Below the pieces are notes generated by a model that did no database searches, was not told the origin of the DNA, and was given only the letters and a program-made list of their open reading frames with translations. From Caldisericia bacterium (GTDB lineage Bacteria > Caldisericota > Caldisericia > UBA6126): a stretch of 54,639 nt of DNA. Positions 32,345 through 54,639 of the stretch are shown here, in pieces (positions within the stretch are counted from its first letter, which is position 1; each line of letters starts with the position of its first letter). The stretch is from positions 31,153-85,791 of the forward strand of contig JAQVSG010000003.1 in NCBI GenBank assembly GCA_028700655.1, read 5' to 3'. A program made the translations under genes and the position numbers.

Positions 32345-32379
32345 AGTAAATTGTTGTCCAGTTGCAAAAGGGGTGTTAT

Positions 32380-33915
32380 ATGGAACTCTATAGTGTTTGG
32401 CTACTACTACCTTTTTTATATATTGCTGGGATGTTGATTAGCAAAAGTCAAAAGCCTTCTTATTATGCCACATATAATTGTTTTGCTATTGCTATCCTGT
32501 TTGTTCTCTTACTATTTCTATATCCGTTCAATCAACCCATGGAATCTGTTGTTACAATAGCCAATCACGGACCTTTTCATATATCGTTCACAATGGACCT
32601 TCTTGCCTGGATAACGTCAGTGTTCTGTCTCATCGTTTGGTTTTTTTCTTCTCTGTATTCTGTTCATTATTTTTCCAAAAACGAACAACAAAACATCAAG
32701 CGGTATCAACTTTTTTCCCTACTTAATTTGATGTGTGTGCTGTTCATTTTCAATGCAGACAATTGGGTTACTTTCTTTATTTTCTTTGAGCTTCTTTTGG
32801 TTGTTTCCTATGTATTGATTATTCATTATCAAAAGCCAGATACCTACGCTGCTGGTTTACGATACGTATTCTTTCAAATTATTGGGGGTCTTTTTTTCCT
32901 CAGCACAATCATGATTCTATATTCCCTTCTGGGAACCACCGCTTTTGTTCCTGGAGGATATGCGATCTTATCAGAGTCTTCCTTTTTCATCGTTTTATTC
33001 TGGGGTTTTGTTATTGCTTTTGCTGTTAAAGCAGGGCTTTTCCCCGTCCATATTTGGCTCCCTGAAGCTCACCCTGTAGCGCCTTCACCCGCTTCAGCGC
33101 TGCTATCAGGGATGGTTATTAAAACAGGTGTTTTTGGTATTATGCGGATGGCCATTGAAACCTTTGGAATCAGTAATTTAGTAGGGAATATGTCGGTTAC
33201 AGTTTTATTACTGATTGCCATCTTTACAATGTTTTGGGGATCCGCTATCGCCATTGGACAATCGCACATTAAACGAATGTTAGCGTATTCTAGCGTCTCT
33301 CAAATGGGATATATTGTAATGGGTACCATGCTTCTTTCCCCCATCGCTATACTGGGAGCTTTGCTACATATGTTAGCTCATTCTATTGTGAAATCCTTAT
33401 TGTTTATGTCTGCAGGGACTATGATTCACCAGGCTGAAACAACGGATGTTACAGCGTATTCTGGATATGGATACCGGTCTCCTATTGTATTTGGAGCTTT
33501 TACCATAGGAGCTCTCTCAATGATTGGTTTTCCATTGTTTGCAAACTTTATCACAAAATGGGCTTTGGGTGTTGGAGCTGTGGAAGCGATTCAACTAGAG
33601 TATATTGAACCTTGGTTGGGCAGTATTGCTATTGGAATTCTTCTTTTAAGCAGCATTTTAAATGCTCTTTATTATCTACCCATCATTATCCAAGGATGGT
33701 TTCATGTTCCTCAACCAGAGAATGGAGATTCCTTTGGTTCGGCACGGCCAATTCCTGTTATTCGATACAAAACTCCTGTCACTGTCACTGTTACCATGAT
33801 TGTGTTAGCAGTCATCATTGTAGCTTACGGTATATACCCCGATCCAATCATTAACATTTGCAGAGATATTCTAACGAGTTTAACTCCTACGAATTCCTGT
33901 CCTTCTCTCTTTTAA
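32380..33915 (+). CDS. Proton-translocating membrane subunit, NuoN/MrpD type
   Basis: A 511-residue polytopic protein of the complex I / Mrp antiporter family. Hallmarks: Glu in the FFELLLVVSYVLI helix, the half-channel block FPVHIWLPEAHPVAPSPASALLSG region with its Lys (VKAG), and the IKRMLAYSSVSQMGY helix. About 14 transmembrane helices are expected. MrpD and NuoN cannot be separated safely without alignment. The start at 32380 was chosen over an in-frame TTG at 32362 because GGGGTG precedes it. The stop overlaps the next start as TAATG. Confidence 0.87.
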   Translation: MELYSVWLLLPFLYIAGMLISKSQKPSYYATYNCFAIAILFVLLLFLYPFNQPMESVVTIANHGPFHISFTMDLLAWITSVFCLIVWFFSSLYSVHYFSKNEQQNIKRYQLFSLLNLMCVLFIFNADNWVTFFIFFELLLVVSYVLIIHYQKPDTYAAGLRYVFFQIIGGLFFLSTIMILYSLLGTTAFVPGGYAILSESSFFIVLFWGFVIAFAVKAGLFPVHIWLPEAHPVAPSPASALLSGMVIKTGVFGIMRMAIETFGISNLVGNMSVTVLLLIAIFTMFWGSAIAIGQSHIKRMLAYSSVSQMGYIVMGTMLLSPIAILGALLHMLAHSIVKSLLFMSAGTMIHQAETTDVTAYSGYGYRSPIVFGAFTIGALSMIGFPLFANFITKWALGVGAVEAIQLEYIEPWLGSIAIGILLLSSILNALYYLPIIIQGWFHVPQPENGDSFGSARPIPVIRYKTPVTVTVTMIVLAVIIVAYGIYPDPIINICRDILTSLTPTNSCPSLF

Positions 33916-35747
33916 TGATCCCTATTTCTTTGGGTGTTACCGATTACACCACTCTGTTCCTTTTTCTCACTATTCCTCCTTATGTTGCCTCCTTTATCTA
34001 TGCTTTTAAATATGTGCATGCTCGAAAAGTCGAATTTTTTACTTTTTTTATACTCACATTCATAGGTAACGTTGCTATATATTTCACCAAAAACCTTCTA
34101 TCGTTGCTCATTGTCTACGAATTTGTTTCTCTTGTTAGTTTCCCATTAATACTGCACGAGAGAATTAAAGAGTCTTTGCAAGCTGCAAAACTATACTTCA
34201 TCTTTTCTCTATTCAGCGGTGTTTTAGTTTTAGGAGGCGTTTGGTTTGTCAAATTGCCTGCTTATCAGGTTACCGGAGCTGTTATGATGGCGCTTGGATT
34301 TATGGTGAAAGCAGGGGGATACCCTTTTCATGTTTGGCTTCCTGAAGCTCACCCCGTAGCTCCTCCACCGGCATCAGCCATTCTATCGGGGTGTATTATT
34401 AAAATTGGTTTTTATGGAATGATGCAAGCCTTTATTCTTGTTACTGTTCCTCCTCTTTATGGGTATATCCTATTAGGAATCTCCCTGATTACTATGTTTT
34501 TTGGTGTCATTCAAGCCCTTCTTCAGTCGAACGCAAAGCGAATGCTTGCCTTTCATAGCGTGTCTCAAATGGGCTATATTTTAATGGGTTTGGCTTTGTT
34601 TGTTATTTTCCAAAACACAAACGCTTTGGCTGCCTCTATTCTTCATGCTGTGAACCATGCTTGGTTTAAATCGGCACTGTTTCTTTCTACAGGTGTTTTG
34701 GTGCTTTATTTTGGCACACTGGATATGTATTCCATTCGAGGTCTTTTGAAGCAGAAATGGTTGGTAGCAATACTGTTCTTAATTGCTGTTATGGGCATTT
34801 CGGGGGTTCCTTTTACGAATGGATTCATATCCAAAAATGCTCTTCATGAAGAATTGTTGCTCCATGCTTCATTTTTGTTCCTATTTGCGGAAGCAATCTT
34901 TCTTTTAACAGCCGTGGGTACTTTTACATCCAATTTCAAAATGTTCTACCTAACGTCTTTTCGGTCTATGCAAAAACGATATCGATTGCGTTTTGATTGG
35001 CGAGAAGTTATCCCATTAGGATTGCTAGCAATTCTTATTCTTCTATTTGGCTCCTATCCATTGTTATATCAATTTTTGTTGCCGGCAAAGTTTTCTTCTT
35101 TTCATCATGTATTAGAGGGTTTATCCTTACCACATCATGGTTTTGTGCATTCCTTAATGGGGTTTCTATGGGTATCTTTTGGAGGTATTTTGCTCATTGT
35201 AGTGGGATTGAAAAAAGGCTGGTTTCATATTGCTGTCCCTTATTCCTGGACGGCATTATCATGGTGGTATAGAGTATACGGTACTATAAGAATGTTTTGT
35301 ACTGGTTTGTGTCAAAAAATAGACGATGCGATTGTACATCAATATGATGCTTGGATAACCTACTTGGCGAGTCCCTGGTTTTTGACGTGTCAAGAAATTG
35401 ATGCTATGTTTCCTCGTCAAAATGTGCAATCCTGCCGGAGACTTTCTTCAAGCTGTTGCTCTCTCGACGGAAGAGTGGATAAAGTGAGTGGCTCTATTGT
35501 TCCCGGAATGACCTCTTGGACACACCATGTCAGTGAAAAATTTTGTACAATGGATGATCGCGTTGGTCAAATGTGGGATCAAGTAAAAAAAATGTTTCTC
35601 TTTGTGCTTGATAAGTCTGATAAAGAAGATCAAAATAATGCCAAACGATATGCTTTTATGGTTTCTCAAATAGGGAAAGTTGTCATTGTTGTTACCACCC
35701 TTCTTACTATTGCTGTATTTGTTTTCTTTATCGTGTGGGTTCAGTAA
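33915..35747 (+). CDS. Proton-translocating membrane subunit with long C-terminal extension, NuoL/MrpA/HyfB type
   Basis: A 610-residue antiporter-like protein paired with the previous gene. Hallmarks: Glu in IVYEFVSLVSF, YPFHVWLPEAHPVAPPP, and AKRMLAFHSVSQMGY. After the core helices, residues ~400-610 hold additional hydrophobic helices and a Cys-containing hydrophilic stretch (SCRRLSSSCCS) before a final transmembrane helix, unlike plain MrpD. The ATG lies inside the preceding stop (TAATG) with no ribosome site, so translation is coupled. No MrpB, C, E, F or G, Nuo or hydrogenase subunit is next to it. Confidence 0.82.
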   Translation: MIPISLGVTDYTTLFLFLTIPPYVASFIYAFKYVHARKVEFFTFFILTFIGNVAIYFTKNLLSLLIVYEFVSLVSFPLILHERIKESLQAAKLYFIFSLFSGVLVLGGVWFVKLPAYQVTGAVMMALGFMVKAGGYPFHVWLPEAHPVAPPPASAILSGCIIKIGFYGMMQAFILVTVPPLYGYILLGISLITMFFGVIQALLQSNAKRMLAFHSVSQMGYILMGLALFVIFQNTNALAASILHAVNHAWFKSALFLSTGVLVLYFGTLDMYSIRGLLKQKWLVAILFLIAVMGISGVPFTNGFISKNALHEELLLHASFLFLFAEAIFLLTAVGTFTSNFKMFYLTSFRSMQKRYRLRFDWREVIPLGLLAILILLFGSYPLLYQFLLPAKFSSFHHVLEGLSLPHHGFVHSLMGFLWVSFGGILLIVVGLKKGWFHIAVPYSWTALSWWYRVYGTIRMFCTGLCQKIDDAIVHQYDAWITYLASPWFLTCQEIDAMFPRQNVQSCRRLSSSCCSLDGRVDKVSGSIVPGMTSWTHHVSEKFCTMDDRVGQMWDQVKKMFLFVLDKSDKEDQNNAKRYAFMVSQIGKVVIVVTTLLTIAVFVFFIVWVQ

Positions 35748-48855: not shown

Positions 48856-49706
48856 ATTGCCTCCAGATGTGTTCGATAATTGTCAATCAGTCGAGTGTTT
48901 CCAATTTTTACAGCCAAGGCGATCAACACATCACCTTTTACATTTTCAAGGGGGGTTAAGGTTTGTGCATCCACAATTTCAATATATTCAACGGTAGCTA
49001 GGGGCTCAAGTTGTATTTTTTCCTTCATTTGCGACCGGATGACAGAAGCACTGGTTTCTCCTTGCATCATCAGATTATTCGCAAGTTCCAAACTCTTCGA
49101 AAGCACTCGGGCGGCAGTTCTTTCTTGTGGCGAAAGGGTTGAATTTCTAGAACTCATAGCCAATCCGTCTTTTTCCCGTACAATAGGGCAAGGTACTATC
49201 TGTACCGGAATACTCAAATCGTGCACCATTTGTTGGATGATGACAAGCTGCTGTGCATCTTTTTCTCCAAAATACGCCCGATCCGGCATAACAATGTTGA
49301 AAAGCTTGTTTACCACGGTACATACTCCCCGAAAGTGTCCCGGTCTTGTAGCTCCACACAGAGAGTTACCGAGTTGGTTGATATCTACAAACGCATAGGT
49401 TGGATCGGGATACATTTCCTTTGTACAGGGAGCGAAAATTAAGTCCACTTCTTCTTTGTCGCACTGCTGAGTGTCGTTTTCCATATTTCTGGGATAGTTT
49501 TCAAAATCTTCATTGGGTCCAAATTGGGTAGGATTCACAAAAATACTGACCACAACCTTATCATTCTGTTTTCGAGCTTTCCGTATTAAGCTTGCATGTC
49601 CTTCATGTAAAAACCCCATGGTAGGAACAAAACCAATAGAAGAGTTTCTGTGTTTCCAATCTTGTATGATTTCGCGCATCGCCTGAATATCTTCTACAAT
49701 TGTCAT
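48852..49706 (-). CDS. panC: Pantothenate synthetase
   Basis: A 284-residue ligase joining pantoate and beta-alanine with ATP. Motifs are [14 protein letters not shown] at 28-41, [13 protein letters not shown], the [11 protein letters not shown] block and MSSRN. The start at 49706 ([10 protein letters not shown]) has AAAGGAGAAAA upstream and overlaps the panB stop by ATGA. Confidence 0.96.
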
Positions 49707-50563
49707 TTTTCTCCTTTCGAAGCTTCCCAATGATCACTTTGCATTTGGGTTAGAAGAGAGGAGTCCATGGGAAATGAATGCTCTTTAGTGGGAAAGGAAC
49801 CCTTCTGGACGTCCTGGATATATTGCTGGATTTTGGTTTTCATCAAAGACCCACTATTTTCGTACATCTTCACAAACGAAGGACTCATTTCTGAATACAG
49901 CCCGAACATGTCGTGAAATACCAGTATCTGCCCATCGCAGTGAACTCCAGCACCAATCCCAATGGTTGGAACAGATAGTTTTTCTGAGATCATTTGTGCC
50001 AATTCTGTAGGAATACACTCCAAGACAATCGCAAATACGCCAGCTTCCTCCAACAATGCAGCATCGTAGTTCATTTTCTGGCATGCATGCAGTGTTTTTC
50101 CTTGTATCTTGTACCCTCCCAAACTATGAATAGATTGCGGAGTTAGACCAAGATGTCCCATTACAGGGATTTGAGCTTTCACGCAGGCTTTGATTTGGTC
50201 GATAATTTCTTCTCCACCCTCCATTTTAATGGCTTCAGCATGTCCTTCTTGAACCAATCTGCCAGCATTAACGACTGCATCATAGGCAGAAGTTTGGTAC
50301 GACATAAAGGGCATATCCACGACAAGCAAAGCATTTCTCGTTCCTTTCGAAACTGCTTTTGCATGGTGAATCATATCCTCCATTGTTACTTGAAGAGTAT
50401 TTTCATGTCCTAAACAGACCATTCCCAGTGAATCTCCTACTAATATTCCATCTATATCTGCTTCATCTACTATTTTGGCTGTAGTATAATCATAGGCTGT
50501 CACCATGGATATTTTTTTATGTTTTTCTTTCATTTGTTGAAATGTTTGCACTGTTTTTTTCAT
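49703..50563 (-). CDS. panB: 3-methyl-2-oxobutanoate hydroxymethyltransferase
   Basis: A 286-residue enzyme making ketopantoate from 2-ketoisovalerate and 5,10-methylene-tetrahydrofolate. Motifs: MVTAYDYTTAKI, GILVGDSLGMV, VDMPFMSY, KMEGG and MGHLGLTPQS. The start overlaps the stop of the DUF2520 gene (ATGA). It uses the folate cofactor handled by the FolD-like protein encoded at 17808. Confidence 0.96.
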   Translation of the reverse strand: MKKTVQTFQQMKEKHKKISMVTAYDYTTAKIVDEADIDGILVGDSLGMVCLGHENTLQVTMEDMIHHAKAVSKGTRNALLVVDMPFMSYQTSAYDAVVNAGRLVQEGHAEAIKMEGGEEIIDQIKACVKAQIPVMGHLGLTPQSIHSLGGYKIQGKTLHACQKMNYDAALLEEAGVFAIVLECIPTELAQMISEKLSVPTIGIGAGVHCDGQILVFHDMFGLYSEMSPSFVKMYENSGSLMKTKIQQYIQDVQKGSFPTKEHSFPMDSSLLTQMQSDHWEASKGEK

Positions 50564-51462
50564 TGTAATCCTTCATTCTCTGCTATTTGTACCGAACTTA
50601 AAACGGTTTGAAAAAGTTCTTTCAGCGAAGAATAATCGTTTTGAGGATGCTTATTCTGAGCAATGTTTACCAGTTCACTCGAAAGAATCGCATACAGTCT
50701 TTGTTTTTCTAGGGGTAAACAATCCAGATGTCTTTGAATGGTAACTACATCATTCCGGTCCACTGGTCCCGTCAGAGAATCCGTAATTCCATGGTCGAAT
50801 ACACTTTGGATCGTAGTTTCTATCAAAGGTTTTGTCATTTTTTGAGCACATTCCAGGGGGATATTACACTCCTGTAGTAGTTCCCACCCGGTGTGAATCA
50901 GAACGCTTAGAAAACTAGATAGTAGCACATTGGCAGCATGGTACATGTGTTTTTTTTCTGCCTCAATACAAACTACAGAATTCCCAAGATGAGAAAAAAA
51001 CAATTGTAGATCCTCAAGGTGTTGATCGGGACCTTCCACAGTGAAGTAAGCATTATACAAGCTGCGATAAGCATTTGGATCAGAAGTAATAGGAACAACA
51101 GGATGAATCGCATATCCAATAGCACCCTTTTTTTCTATTCCATCAAAAATCTGCGAGGACATCACGCCACTAGTATGACACACAATTTTCCCATGAAGAG
51201 GAACTTGCTTTAGATCATTCCAAACCTCTGCAATGGCCCCGTCTGGTGTAGTGATAAAAAGAATATCGCATGCCTGCGCACACTCTGATATACTTTGAAA
51301 AACGATGGATTGGGTATTGTGAGCAGATTTTTGAGAAGAAGATGTATGTAGACTATAGTATCCACCAATACAAAGATTGCTGTGGTAAAAATACAATCCA
51401 AGGGCGTTTCCAACTTTACCCGCACCAATAAAACCGATTGTGGAGGATTGCAATGATTTCAT
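50560..51462 (-). CDS. Rossmann-like/DUF2520 protein, probable ketopantoate reductase (PanG-like)
   Basis: A 300-residue dehydrogenase-like protein. The NAD(P) fold starts GFIGAGKVGNALGLYF; ITTPDGAI and the CHTSGVMSSQ block follow, and the C-terminal DUF2520 helical domain includes the HAANVLLSSFLSVL stretch. Its place between coaBC and panB, with ATGA overlap to panB, fits a ketopantoate reductase of the PanG type that replaces PanE. That role is inferred from context, and I recall rather than verified that PanG belongs to this family. Confidence 0.8.
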   Translation of the reverse strand: MKSLQSSTIGFIGAGKVGNALGLYFYHSNLCIGGYYSLHTSSSQKSAHNTQSIVFQSISECAQACDILFITTPDGAIAEVWNDLKQVPLHGKIVCHTSGVMSSQIFDGIEKKGAIGYAIHPVVPITSDPNAYRSLYNAYFTVEGPDQHLEDLQLFFSHLGNSVVCIEAEKKHMYHAANVLLSSFLSVLIHTGWELLQECNIPLECAQKMTKPLIETTIQSVFDHGITDSLTGPVDRNDVVTIQRHLDCLPLEKQRLYAILSSELVNIAQNKHPQNDYSSLKELFQTVLSSVQIAENEGLQ

Positions 51463-51498
51463 TACAAACTCTTACAATATCTCAAAGGATAGGAAAAC

Positions 51499-52686
51499 TC
51501 AGGAACCATTTTGAAGCAAACCAAATTGTTCTATCAAAGTTTGTAGAATTATTGTAGCAAGCTCTTCTTTCGATTGGGCTTGCAATTTCGCCGAATGCTC
51601 ATGGGAAATGATCCAAACCGATCCATCCATGGAAGAAAAATTAGCAAGATCGTTACCAATCATGATGTCAGCGTTTTTCCGAATTTGTTTTTCTTTTGCT
51701 CGTTCCAGTAAACATTCGCTTTCAGCAGCGAATCCAATCAGAATTTGATGTTTTTTCGTGGCTCCCAGTTCTGCAAGAATATCCTGATTTTGTTTTAATT
51801 CGAGGGTTAAAACCTGATCTGTTTTTTTTATTTTCTGCGATTGGATTTGTACCGGTTTGAAATCAGAAACTGCCGCTGCCATAAACACAATATCAACATG
51901 CGGGTATACTTTCATTACTTCCGAATGCATCTCCTCAACAGTTTCAACTCGAATGCACTTTAAACTCGGATTTTCTAAATGAGAATTCGCGGCTATCAGA
52001 GTAACGTCTGCCCCCATATCATGGCACGCTTTGGCAAGCGCAAAACCCATTCGTCCCGAGGATGTATTGGAGATATATCGTATAGGATCAAGGTATTCTC
52101 GGGTAGCACCAGCGGTGATGAGTATTTTTTTGTGGGAAAGCAAAGCAGGACAAAAGTTGTTTTTCACTTCCTGAACAATGCTATCGACATCTTTTAACCG
52201 ACCTCTACCACTTGTCCCACATGCCAAAGGGCCTTCATCGGGTTCGATGAAACGATACCCTCTTTTTAGTAGCTGATTGCGATTGAAAACCATGGTTGGG
52301 TTTTCATACATATGAACATTCATAGCGGGGGCAAAGAGTACTTTTTCAGGGGGAGCTGCTGCTAGAATAGATGTTAGTAGGTCATCTGCAATCCCCGCCG
52401 ATACTTTCCCAAAAACATTATAGCTTGTAGGAGCAATCAGGATAAGGTCCGATTCAGAGGCAAGTTTAATATGAGTTACATTTTTGCACGAACCTTCTTC
52501 AAACATAGAAGTATATACTGTATTGTGAGATATAGTCTCAAAAGTAAGAGGGGAGATGAGATTGGTGGCATTTTTTGTCATCACAACCGACACATAAAAC
52601 TCATCTTGGATCAACCTGCGAACAATTTCAATGCTTTTGTATGCTGAAATGGATCCAGTCACACCAAGAACAATATGTTTCTTCAT
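51499..52686 (-). CDS. coaBC: Bifunctional phosphopantothenoylcysteine decarboxylase / phosphopantothenate-cysteine ligase
   Basis: A 395-residue Dfp protein catalysing two steps of coenzyme A synthesis. The FMN-dependent decarboxylase half has GSISAYKS, His72 (THIKLA), Asn123 (PAMNVHM) and the Cys156 lid (ACGTSGRGRL). The ligase half has the ITAGATREYLDPIRYISN block and KKTD-type loop. It heads the operon coaBC-DUF2520-panB-panC-panD, with AGGAG upstream and a promoter at 52747-52774. Confidence 0.95.
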   Translation of the reverse strand: MKKHIVLGVTGSISAYKSIEIVRRLIQDEFYVSVVMTKNATNLISPLTFETISHNTVYTSMFEEGSCKNVTHIKLASESDLILIAPTSYNVFGKVSAGIADDLLTSILAAAPPEKVLFAPAMNVHMYENPTMVFNRNQLLKRGYRFIEPDEGPLACGTSGRGRLKDVDSIVQEVKNNFCPALLSHKKILITAGATREYLDPIRYISNTSSGRMGFALAKACHDMGADVTLIAANSHLENPSLKCIRVETVEEMHSEVMKVYPHVDIVFMAAAVSDFKPVQIQSQKIKKTDQVLTLELKQNQDILAELGATKKHQILIGFAAESECLLERAKEKQIRKNADIMIGNDLANFSSMDGSVWIISHEHSAKLQAQSKEELATIILQTLIEQFGLLQNGS

Positions 52687-52994: not shown

Positions 52995-53022
52995 TTGAAG
53001 TTTTAAACCCTTGGAGTATAAT
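52995..53022 (+). promoter_or_regulatory. Promoter of the riboswitch-SulP unit
   Basis: TTGAAG (52995-53000), a 16-nt spacer and a perfect TATAAT (53017-53022) place the start near 53029, right at the first stem of the riboswitch. Confidence 0.7.
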
Positions 53023-53030
53023 GATGGAGT

Positions 53031-53144
53031 ATTGCTTAATCTTCTTCGGAAGAGTGGGGGAACCAGAACCAGTTTTTTGGGGTGAATCCAATTGCGGTAG
53101 GGATGGCAATCCATTCCGAACCCGTCAGCTAACCTCACCAGCAA
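53031..53144 (+). promoter_or_regulatory. Candidate cyclic-di-AMP riboswitch (ydaO-yuaA type)
   Basis: The leader carries the conserved blocks of the ydaO-type aptamer in order: GAGTGGGGGAACC (53052-53064), GGGGTGAATCC (53079-53089), GGTAGGG (53096-53102) and CCGAACCCGTCAGCTAACCTC (about 53116-53136). A closing stem pairs TTGCT (53032-53036) with AGCAA (53140-53144). These blocks define a c-di-AMP sensor that usually controls potassium, osmolyte and cell-wall genes. The call is from memory of the consensus; a covariance search against RF00379 would confirm it. Confidence 0.82.
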
Positions 53145-53174
53145 ATGAAGAAATTTGTTTGGTGGAGGTTTTTG

Positions 53175-54639
53175 TTGAAAGTAAATTGGTTTACAGAGAT
53201 AACGGCTGGAATAACAGTTGGAATCGTGGCTTTACCTCTTGCTTTAGCGTTTGGTGCTGCCAGCGGCGCTGGTCCTGCAGCGGGTATTTATACAGCCATT
53301 GTTAGTGGTCTTATTGCAGGAGTGTTTGGTGGATCTCGTTTTCAAATCACTGGACCAACAGGAGCCATGACGGTAGTTTTAATTAGCATTGTTACCCAAT
53401 ATGGCATACCGGGAATGTTGGTGGCTGGTTTTATGGCAGGTATACTCCAAATTATTTTTGGATTTTTACGTGTTGGAAAAATCATTCACTTAATCCCTCA
53501 CAGTGTTGTAGCAGGATTTACCAATGGCATTGCTATCCTGATATTCATTGGACAGATTAAACATCTATCAGGAGGCATATTGATTGCTATGGTTACCATA
53601 CTAGTCATTTTGCTTTGTCAACATTTCTTGCCTAAGATTCCAGCTTCTTTTATAGGTTTGCTTGCAGGGATGGGAGTTTTTTTTATTCTAGGCACTCGGG
53701 GACCTTCTGTAGATACAATTCCTCAATCACTTCCTTTGTTTCAATTTCCTACTTTTCAACGAACCATGCTGCTTTCCTTGTTGAAACCTGCCATTACGAT
53801 AGCCCTATTAGGAAGCATTGAATCTTTATTGTCTGCAGCAGTAGCTGACAATATGACTCATACAAATCATGATCCTAACAGAGAATTGATAGGCCAAGGT
53901 CTTGGTAATTTAGCGGCCTCCTTTGTAGGAGGAGTTCCTTCTACGGGAGCAATTGCTCGTACTGCTGTTAATATTAAAAGTGGAGGACAAACCCGTTGGG
54001 TGAGTCTAGTACATAGTCTATTACTGCTTGTTTTTTTGCTGTATTTGGGTTCCTATACTCTCTGGATTCCTTTAGCAGCTCTGGCTGGAGTTCTTGCTGT
54101 TACTTGCTGGAATATGATTGACAAAGAAAGCGTACTAATGATATTTAAAGCACCAAAATCTTACACTGTGGTAATGATTGTTACCACTATTGTAACTGTA
54201 CTTGTTGATATCACCTATGCAGTAGGAGTTGGGATTTTGCTAGCTATAGTTATTCATGCTTTTCATAGTTCTAAACTACATTTGGATCCTATCATCCATC
54301 CTGATCTTCCCGACAATGTACAAGTCTATTCTATGGAGGGTACTCTTTTCTTTGGGAATACAAGCCTTTTACATCCTTTGAAAGCATTGCCTTGTCATGG
54401 TTTGTTAGTGGATGCAAACAAACTACAATGGCTAGATGCCTCTGCAGGAATCGAAATTCAAAAACTGGCTCAATTGAGAAGCCGTTGTGGGAAGTCATTT
54501 TTTCTCTACGGTTTATCTGAAGAGCTTCAATCTACCCTTATTCGCGTGAATGGAAGCAAATTTGCATCCAATCATTTGACGACCAATATGGAGCAAGCTT
54601 TGCACAATATGAGTAAAATTCTTCCCTTCTCGCAGGTAT
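53175..54639 (+). CDS. SulP-family anion transporter with STAS domain (3' end outside window)
   Basis: A 488-codon open frame to the window edge. The protein has the SulP start WFTEITAGITVGIVALPLAL, QITGPTGAMTVV, then IHLIPHSVVAGFTNGIA, the GQGLGNLAASFVGGVPSTGAI block and, after about residue 380, a STAS domain with LLVDANKLQWLDASAG. SulP members move sulfate, bicarbonate or other anions. The start is put at TTG 53175, 6 nt after GGAGG (53164-53168); an in-frame ATG at 53145 has no ribosome site and touches the riboswitch. Control by c-di-AMP would tie it to osmotic or ion balance. Confidence 0.88.
   Translation, partial: MKVNWFTEITAGITVGIVALPLALAFGAASGAGPAAGIYTAIVSGLIAGVFGGSRFQITGPTGAMTVVLISIVTQYGIPGMLVAGFMAGILQIIFGFLRVGKIIHLIPHSVVAGFTNGIAILIFIGQIKHLSGGILIAMVTILVILLCQHFLPKIPASFIGLLAGMGVFFILGTRGPSVDTIPQSLPLFQFPTFQRTMLLSLLKPAITIALLGSIESLLSAAVADNMTHTNHDPNRELIGQGLGNLAASFVGGVPSTGAIARTAVNIKSGGQTRWVSLVHSLLLLVFLLYLGSYTLWIPLAALAGVLAVTCWNMIDKESVLMIFKAPKSYTVVMIVTTIVTVLVDITYAVGVGILLAIVIHAFHSSKLHLDPIIHPDLPDNVQVYSMEGTLFFGNTSLLHPLKALPCHGLLVDANKLQWLDASAGIEIQKLAQLRSRCGKSFFLYGLSEELQSTLIRVNGSKFASNHLTTNMEQALHNMSKILPFSQV

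Follow-up and report, generated by a model that had tools for sequence, protein, structure and literature searches.

Here, we report a c-di-AMP riboswitch that stands directly in front of a SulP/SLC26 family anion transporter gene in Caldisericia bacterium, at the 3′ end of the stretch of 54,639 nucleotides that was analysed (the window). We propose, with a probability of roughly 0.6, that this riboswitch controls the transporter with an ON polarity: c-di-AMP would bind the aptamer, which would exclude an alternative hairpin in the cell and allow SulP to be produced. c-di-AMP riboswitches are regarded as OFF switches, mostly of K+/osmolyte uptake and of cell-wall genes. The riboswitch and the SulP gene almost certainly form one unit, and SulP is a real and recurrent target, apparently undescribed, of a known riboswitch class. 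No SulP target of a c-di-AMP riboswitch was found in the literature searched; as the primary gene lists (Nelson 2013, Block 2010) lie outside this search, the absence is weak evidence.

First, a search of the whole 54.6-kb window with Rfam cmscan returned RF00379 (ydaO/yuaA) as the single family above gathering score, at 53023-53158 of the forward strand. The match covers the full model (1-134), is not truncated and scores 83.1 bits (E 6.6e-18, gathering threshold 38), which confirms the ydaO-type aptamer claimed in the initial annotation by the covariance check proposed there. In the RF00379 alignment, the P1-closed aptamer body extends over 53033-53143, with 53033-53036 pairing with 53140-53143, and the core helix joins 53054-53059 to 53133-53138. 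The statement that all conserved blocks are present was nearly right. Indeed, among the columns with a conservation of 85% or more, the window aptamer deviates from 33 other aptamers at only three: two make up one compensatory paired swap from C-G to U-A, and the third is an A to C change at 53139. Judged by its sequence, the window aptamer is a c-di-AMP riboswitch and would bind this ligand. The same genome encodes a diadenylate cyclase domain (3.3e-38), as do 9 of the 11 genomes searched, so that c-di-AMP is probably made by the host.

A promoter ahead of the aptamer is plausible. A sigma-70-like consensus match at 52995-53022 of the forward strand comprises a -35 box TTGAAG (52995-53000), a 16-nt spacer and a -10 box TATAAT (53017-53022) that ends about 10 nt upstream of P1, a placement that suits the aptamer; transcription would start near 53029 and carry the aptamer in the leader. 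This site had been called a clear promoter, and its score (10/12 in a consensus scan) and position speak for it, but such matches are frequent by chance (4 in the region versus 1.5 +/- 1.5 expected).

The downstream frame (53175-54639, forward strand) encodes the SulP protein that had been annotated there, with a Pfam Sulfate_transp transmembrane domain (PF00916, 4.6e-69, 233.4 bits versus a cut-off of 23.2). Its 3′ end is missing, since the window stops at the last base of the contig (85791 of 85791), inside the gene. The compact arrangement of riboswitch and SulP holds as adjacency and is repeated in four Firmicutes MAGs. We scanned one genome per species for 84,980 species with a two-sequence alignment as query and took the 80 nearest SulP loci; RF00379 lies directly upstream of SulP in 4/80, at 93.5-98.4 bits, in UBA5388 (L029), ZC4RG06 (L030), Clostridiaceae AS10tlH2TH_408 (L031) and UBA4882 (L039), ranked 1, 2, 3 and 11, respectively. 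The remaining SulP loci gave no aptamer in a pattern search covering all 80 or in an Rfam search of 20, and no riboswitch was found in the loci fetched for SulP relatives from 386 other genomes (pattern search, 20 also by Rfam) or with the SulP relatives of plasmids and phages. Viral contigs held one SulP, which lacks a riboswitch, and the window core has no exact copy among them. A tree groups the four Firmicutes SulPs as a clade with a support of 100 and puts the window protein next to them with a support of only 47, which allows for either a single origin of the pairing or two.

In the Firmicutes loci, the genes after SulP encode MrpE, MrpF and MrpG in L031 (L031:1980-3089) and MrpF, MrpG and MbhD in L039 (L039:4096-5091) according to Pfam, and the frames after SulP in L029 look like Mrp genes by eye (L029:3482-4847), suggesting a riboswitch-controlled SulP-Mrp (Na+/H+ antiporter) operon in these three loci. 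Three of the leaders (L030, L031 and L039) contain a strong hairpin with a U-tail, which starts immediately beyond the aptamer, 21 nt from the first base of CUAACC, and L029 has the same hairpin after a masked stretch; the left arm of the terminator lies at +21 in the Firmicutes relatives versus +2 in the window. A separate terminator after the aptamer is the usual OFF layout. An antiterminator pairing between CUUGG and CCAAG was also considered and rejected: it can be drawn in all four Firmicutes leaders, yet is not better than in shuffled sequences.

The translation start of the window SulP is most likely TTG 53175 and not ATG 53145, the first ATG, which adjoins P1 of the aptamer and has no Shine-Dalgarno sequence. 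A GGAGG at 53164-53168 of the forward strand lies 6 nt upstream of this TTG, the SulP frames of L029 and L039 likewise begin at TTG in contexts (GGGGTGATTTTTTGAAA and GAGGTGATTTCTTGAAA) that resemble that of the window (GGTGGAGGTTTTTGTTGAAA), and the three proteins align from there onward; together, these observations favour TTG 53175.

The nearest solved structures are SLC26Dg (5da0, E 7.1e-59) and BicA (6ki1, E 1.2e-48), which by sequence belong to the same SulP/SLC26 family as the window protein. The alignment with SLC26Dg extends into its C-terminal region, as far as residue 455, with no separate Pfam match to STAS in this truncated gene. The window protein differs from BicA by Glu216, which occupies the column of the BicA Asp, and by a score of 224.1 bits against the BicA NCBIfam equivalog cut-off of 880, a gap for which the absent gene end is too short to account; the NCBIfam cut-offs for DauA and the sulP subfamily are also missed by the truncated protein. 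At the position of this acidic transport-site residue, L030 has Glu as in the window, BicA has Asp and the Mrp-linked L029, L031 and L039 have Ser, hinting that ion coupling may differ in these three proteins.

From the 3′ part of the aptamer to the Shine-Dalgarno region, the minimum free energy fold contains a 16-bp hairpin interrupted by two bulges (-17.2 kcal/mol), followed by UUUGUUG. On the forward strand, its left arm (AACCUCACCAGCAAAU, 53131-53146) overlaps two aptamer strands, the 3′ strand of the core helix and that of P1, its right arm (AUUUGUUUGGUGGAGGUU, 53153-53170) contains the Shine-Dalgarno, and a U-tract at 53169-53173 (UUUUUGUU) is, from its sequence and a terminator search, a possible intrinsic terminator tail. 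Since the left arm holds these two aptamer strands, the hairpin and the aptamer are mutually exclusive as folds, and this exclusion is also expected in the cell. Folding agrees with this: in the free ensemble the Shine-Dalgarno and the start are mostly paired, and they are mostly open when the aptamer pairs are enforced. When the linker was shuffled with the Shine-Dalgarno kept, an equally good fold arose in 17/5000 cases (p about 0.003). The aptamer 3′ strand pairs with the downstream stretch at -16.4 kcal/mol, versus -8.9 +/- 2.2 for shuffled sequences. In a survey of 34 riboswitches, 33 of which were testable (L029 being masked there), this excess is by far strongest in the window and the other 32 lie within about 1.5 sd of their own shuffled sequences. 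A hairpin this strong precedes only 3 of the 480 U5 runs of the window. The hairpin of the leader is known from one genome only, with no relative for covariation, and part of its pairing comes free, as the conserved CUAACCUC of the aptamer is anti-SD-like.

From these elements, we propose the following mechanism. The 3′ strand of the aptamer (53133-53143) could take either of two partners, each excluding the other. When c-di-AMP is bound, this strand would be kept in the core helix and P1, GGAGG and TTG 53175 would be free and SulP would be made. In the absence of c-di-AMP, it would pair with the Shine-Dalgarno region and the resulting hairpin (53131-53170) would mask the ribosome site; together with the U-tract, it may additionally terminate transcription. 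If aptamer and hairpin exclude each other, c-di-AMP should turn SulP ON. This follows a logic described for Na+ and c-di-AMP aptamers, in which a terminator stem that overlaps the aptamer gives an ON switch and a separate one an OFF switch (PMC9337991); by this overlap rule, the window would carry an ON design. Such an inverted platform was absent from the initial annotation and is new in the present analysis.

An ON polarity runs against the published c-di-AMP riboswitches, which are OFF switches (PMC9960051, PMC6488665). It is conceivable, though rather unlikely, that the window carries an ordinary OFF switch instead, c-di-AMP lowering SulP through a platform missed by folding, such as an aptamer that occludes the ribosome site or a ligand-dependent pairing of the Shine-Dalgarno. 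All characterised members found in the literature searched are of this polarity, including the translational nlpC riboswitch of C. glutamicum (PMC9960051), and the four Firmicutes SulP leaders show an OFF-type layout. However, the terminator search found no terminator outside the aptamer before the gene in the window, and the strand complementary to the Shine-Dalgarno would be locked within the aptamer once the ligand is bound. The ON polarity, a prediction from one sequence, is to our mind the fairly probable one.

Comparison with known systems helps to situate this proposal. The ydaO/kimA-type riboswitches (B. subtilis kimA, B. thuringiensis kdp) use a separate terminator to turn OFF K+ importers (PMC6488665). 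The window shares with them the RF00379 family and core and the position in the 5′ UTR of a transporter gene, but its predicted platform overlaps the aptamer and its target is an anion transporter. The C. glutamicum nlpC riboswitch was measured as OFF, with a CTCC-SD pairing proposed for the bound state (PMC9960051). Like the window, it has no separate canonical terminator and is most likely translational; unlike the window, it controls a cell-wall peptidase, and a long hairpin between the aptamer 3′ strand and the Shine-Dalgarno is not described for it. Finally, a putative chloride efflux transporter of Synechocystis, slr0753, is a reported c-di-AMP riboswitch target (PMC10117731). This leader also precedes a putative anion transporter, which is reported as a chloride efflux transporter rather than a SulP and belongs to a different phylum. 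The initial annotation suggested that a SulP target would add anion or bicarbonate transport to c-di-AMP control; with slr0753 as a precedent, anion transport under such a riboswitch is not wholly new.

By secondary-structure energies, which leave aside tertiary and ligand terms, the hairpin is about 24 kcal/mol more stable than the aptamer state; a switch must therefore rely on an aptamer that is captured during transcription and on the energy of tertiary contacts and ligand binding. This large bias, the three deviations at conserved columns and the lack of any other RF00379 match, both in its own genome and among the 54 phylum genomes searched, would fit a relic, that is, an acquired leader that no longer switches and leaves SulP constitutive or silent. 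We consider this improbable, as the 83-bit match is full-length with an intact conserved core, a U-A pair compensates for the lost C-G, the Shine-Dalgarno and promoter are well placed and the host-like composition indicates that the leader has probably been kept for long.

Neither the riboswitch (in genus or family relatives) nor a SulP of this type (in genus, family or class) was found, and the phylum gave one SulP match at 31%. The adjoining panB and coaBC (window 49703-52686), an accessory CoA-synthesis stretch, are likewise unmatched in the five relatives G001-G005, which belong to the same genus, family or order, and SulP would lie in an accessory stretch as well. This stretch looks acquired but long settled. 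The same lack of SulP, riboswitch, coaBC and panB in genus and family relatives could arise if the contig end came from a different organism by an assembly or binning error. We rejected such contamination, which is highly improbable: single-copy RecA and a second gene of the contig are 81% and 89% identical, respectively, to genes on one G001 contig with equal spacing, tetranucleotide profile and GC are the same in the last 6 kb as elsewhere, and the estimated contamination is 0.07%. The distance from RecA to this second gene, cyclic 2,3-diphosphoglycerate synthetase-like, is 32 kb in both genomes (window 8029-40197, G001:C146:6058-38191), so that synteny probably extends to roughly the 40-kb mark of the window. 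Two neighbouring Proton_antipo_M genes (NADH:quinone oxidoreductase/Mrp antiporter) lie at 32362-35747 of the window, and no complete operon for complex I or Mrp is evident around them. Elsewhere in the genome, a Mrp-type antiporter cluster (MNHE 2.8e-38; L110:1315-7047, G000:C21) is present, with no SulP in view.

Altogether, we see slightly better than even odds that the pair of aptamer and SulP, which has OFF-type leaders in Firmicutes, where it occurs with Mrp genes, is linked here through a leader whose ribosome site becomes accessible on c-di-AMP binding. The expression platform would then be the new element of the window, the Firmicutes leaders of the same pair being predicted as OFF-type. 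This unit would probably contribute to the ionic or osmotic balance of the cell. A SulP target that recurs in Firmicutes with Mrp antiporter genes would link c-di-AMP to anion and Na+/pH balance. If the proposed switch is true, the existence of this pair in an ON form would indicate that a shortened leader can invert the polarity of a riboswitch, and SulP would act at high c-di-AMP, which may suggest a function such as anion release.
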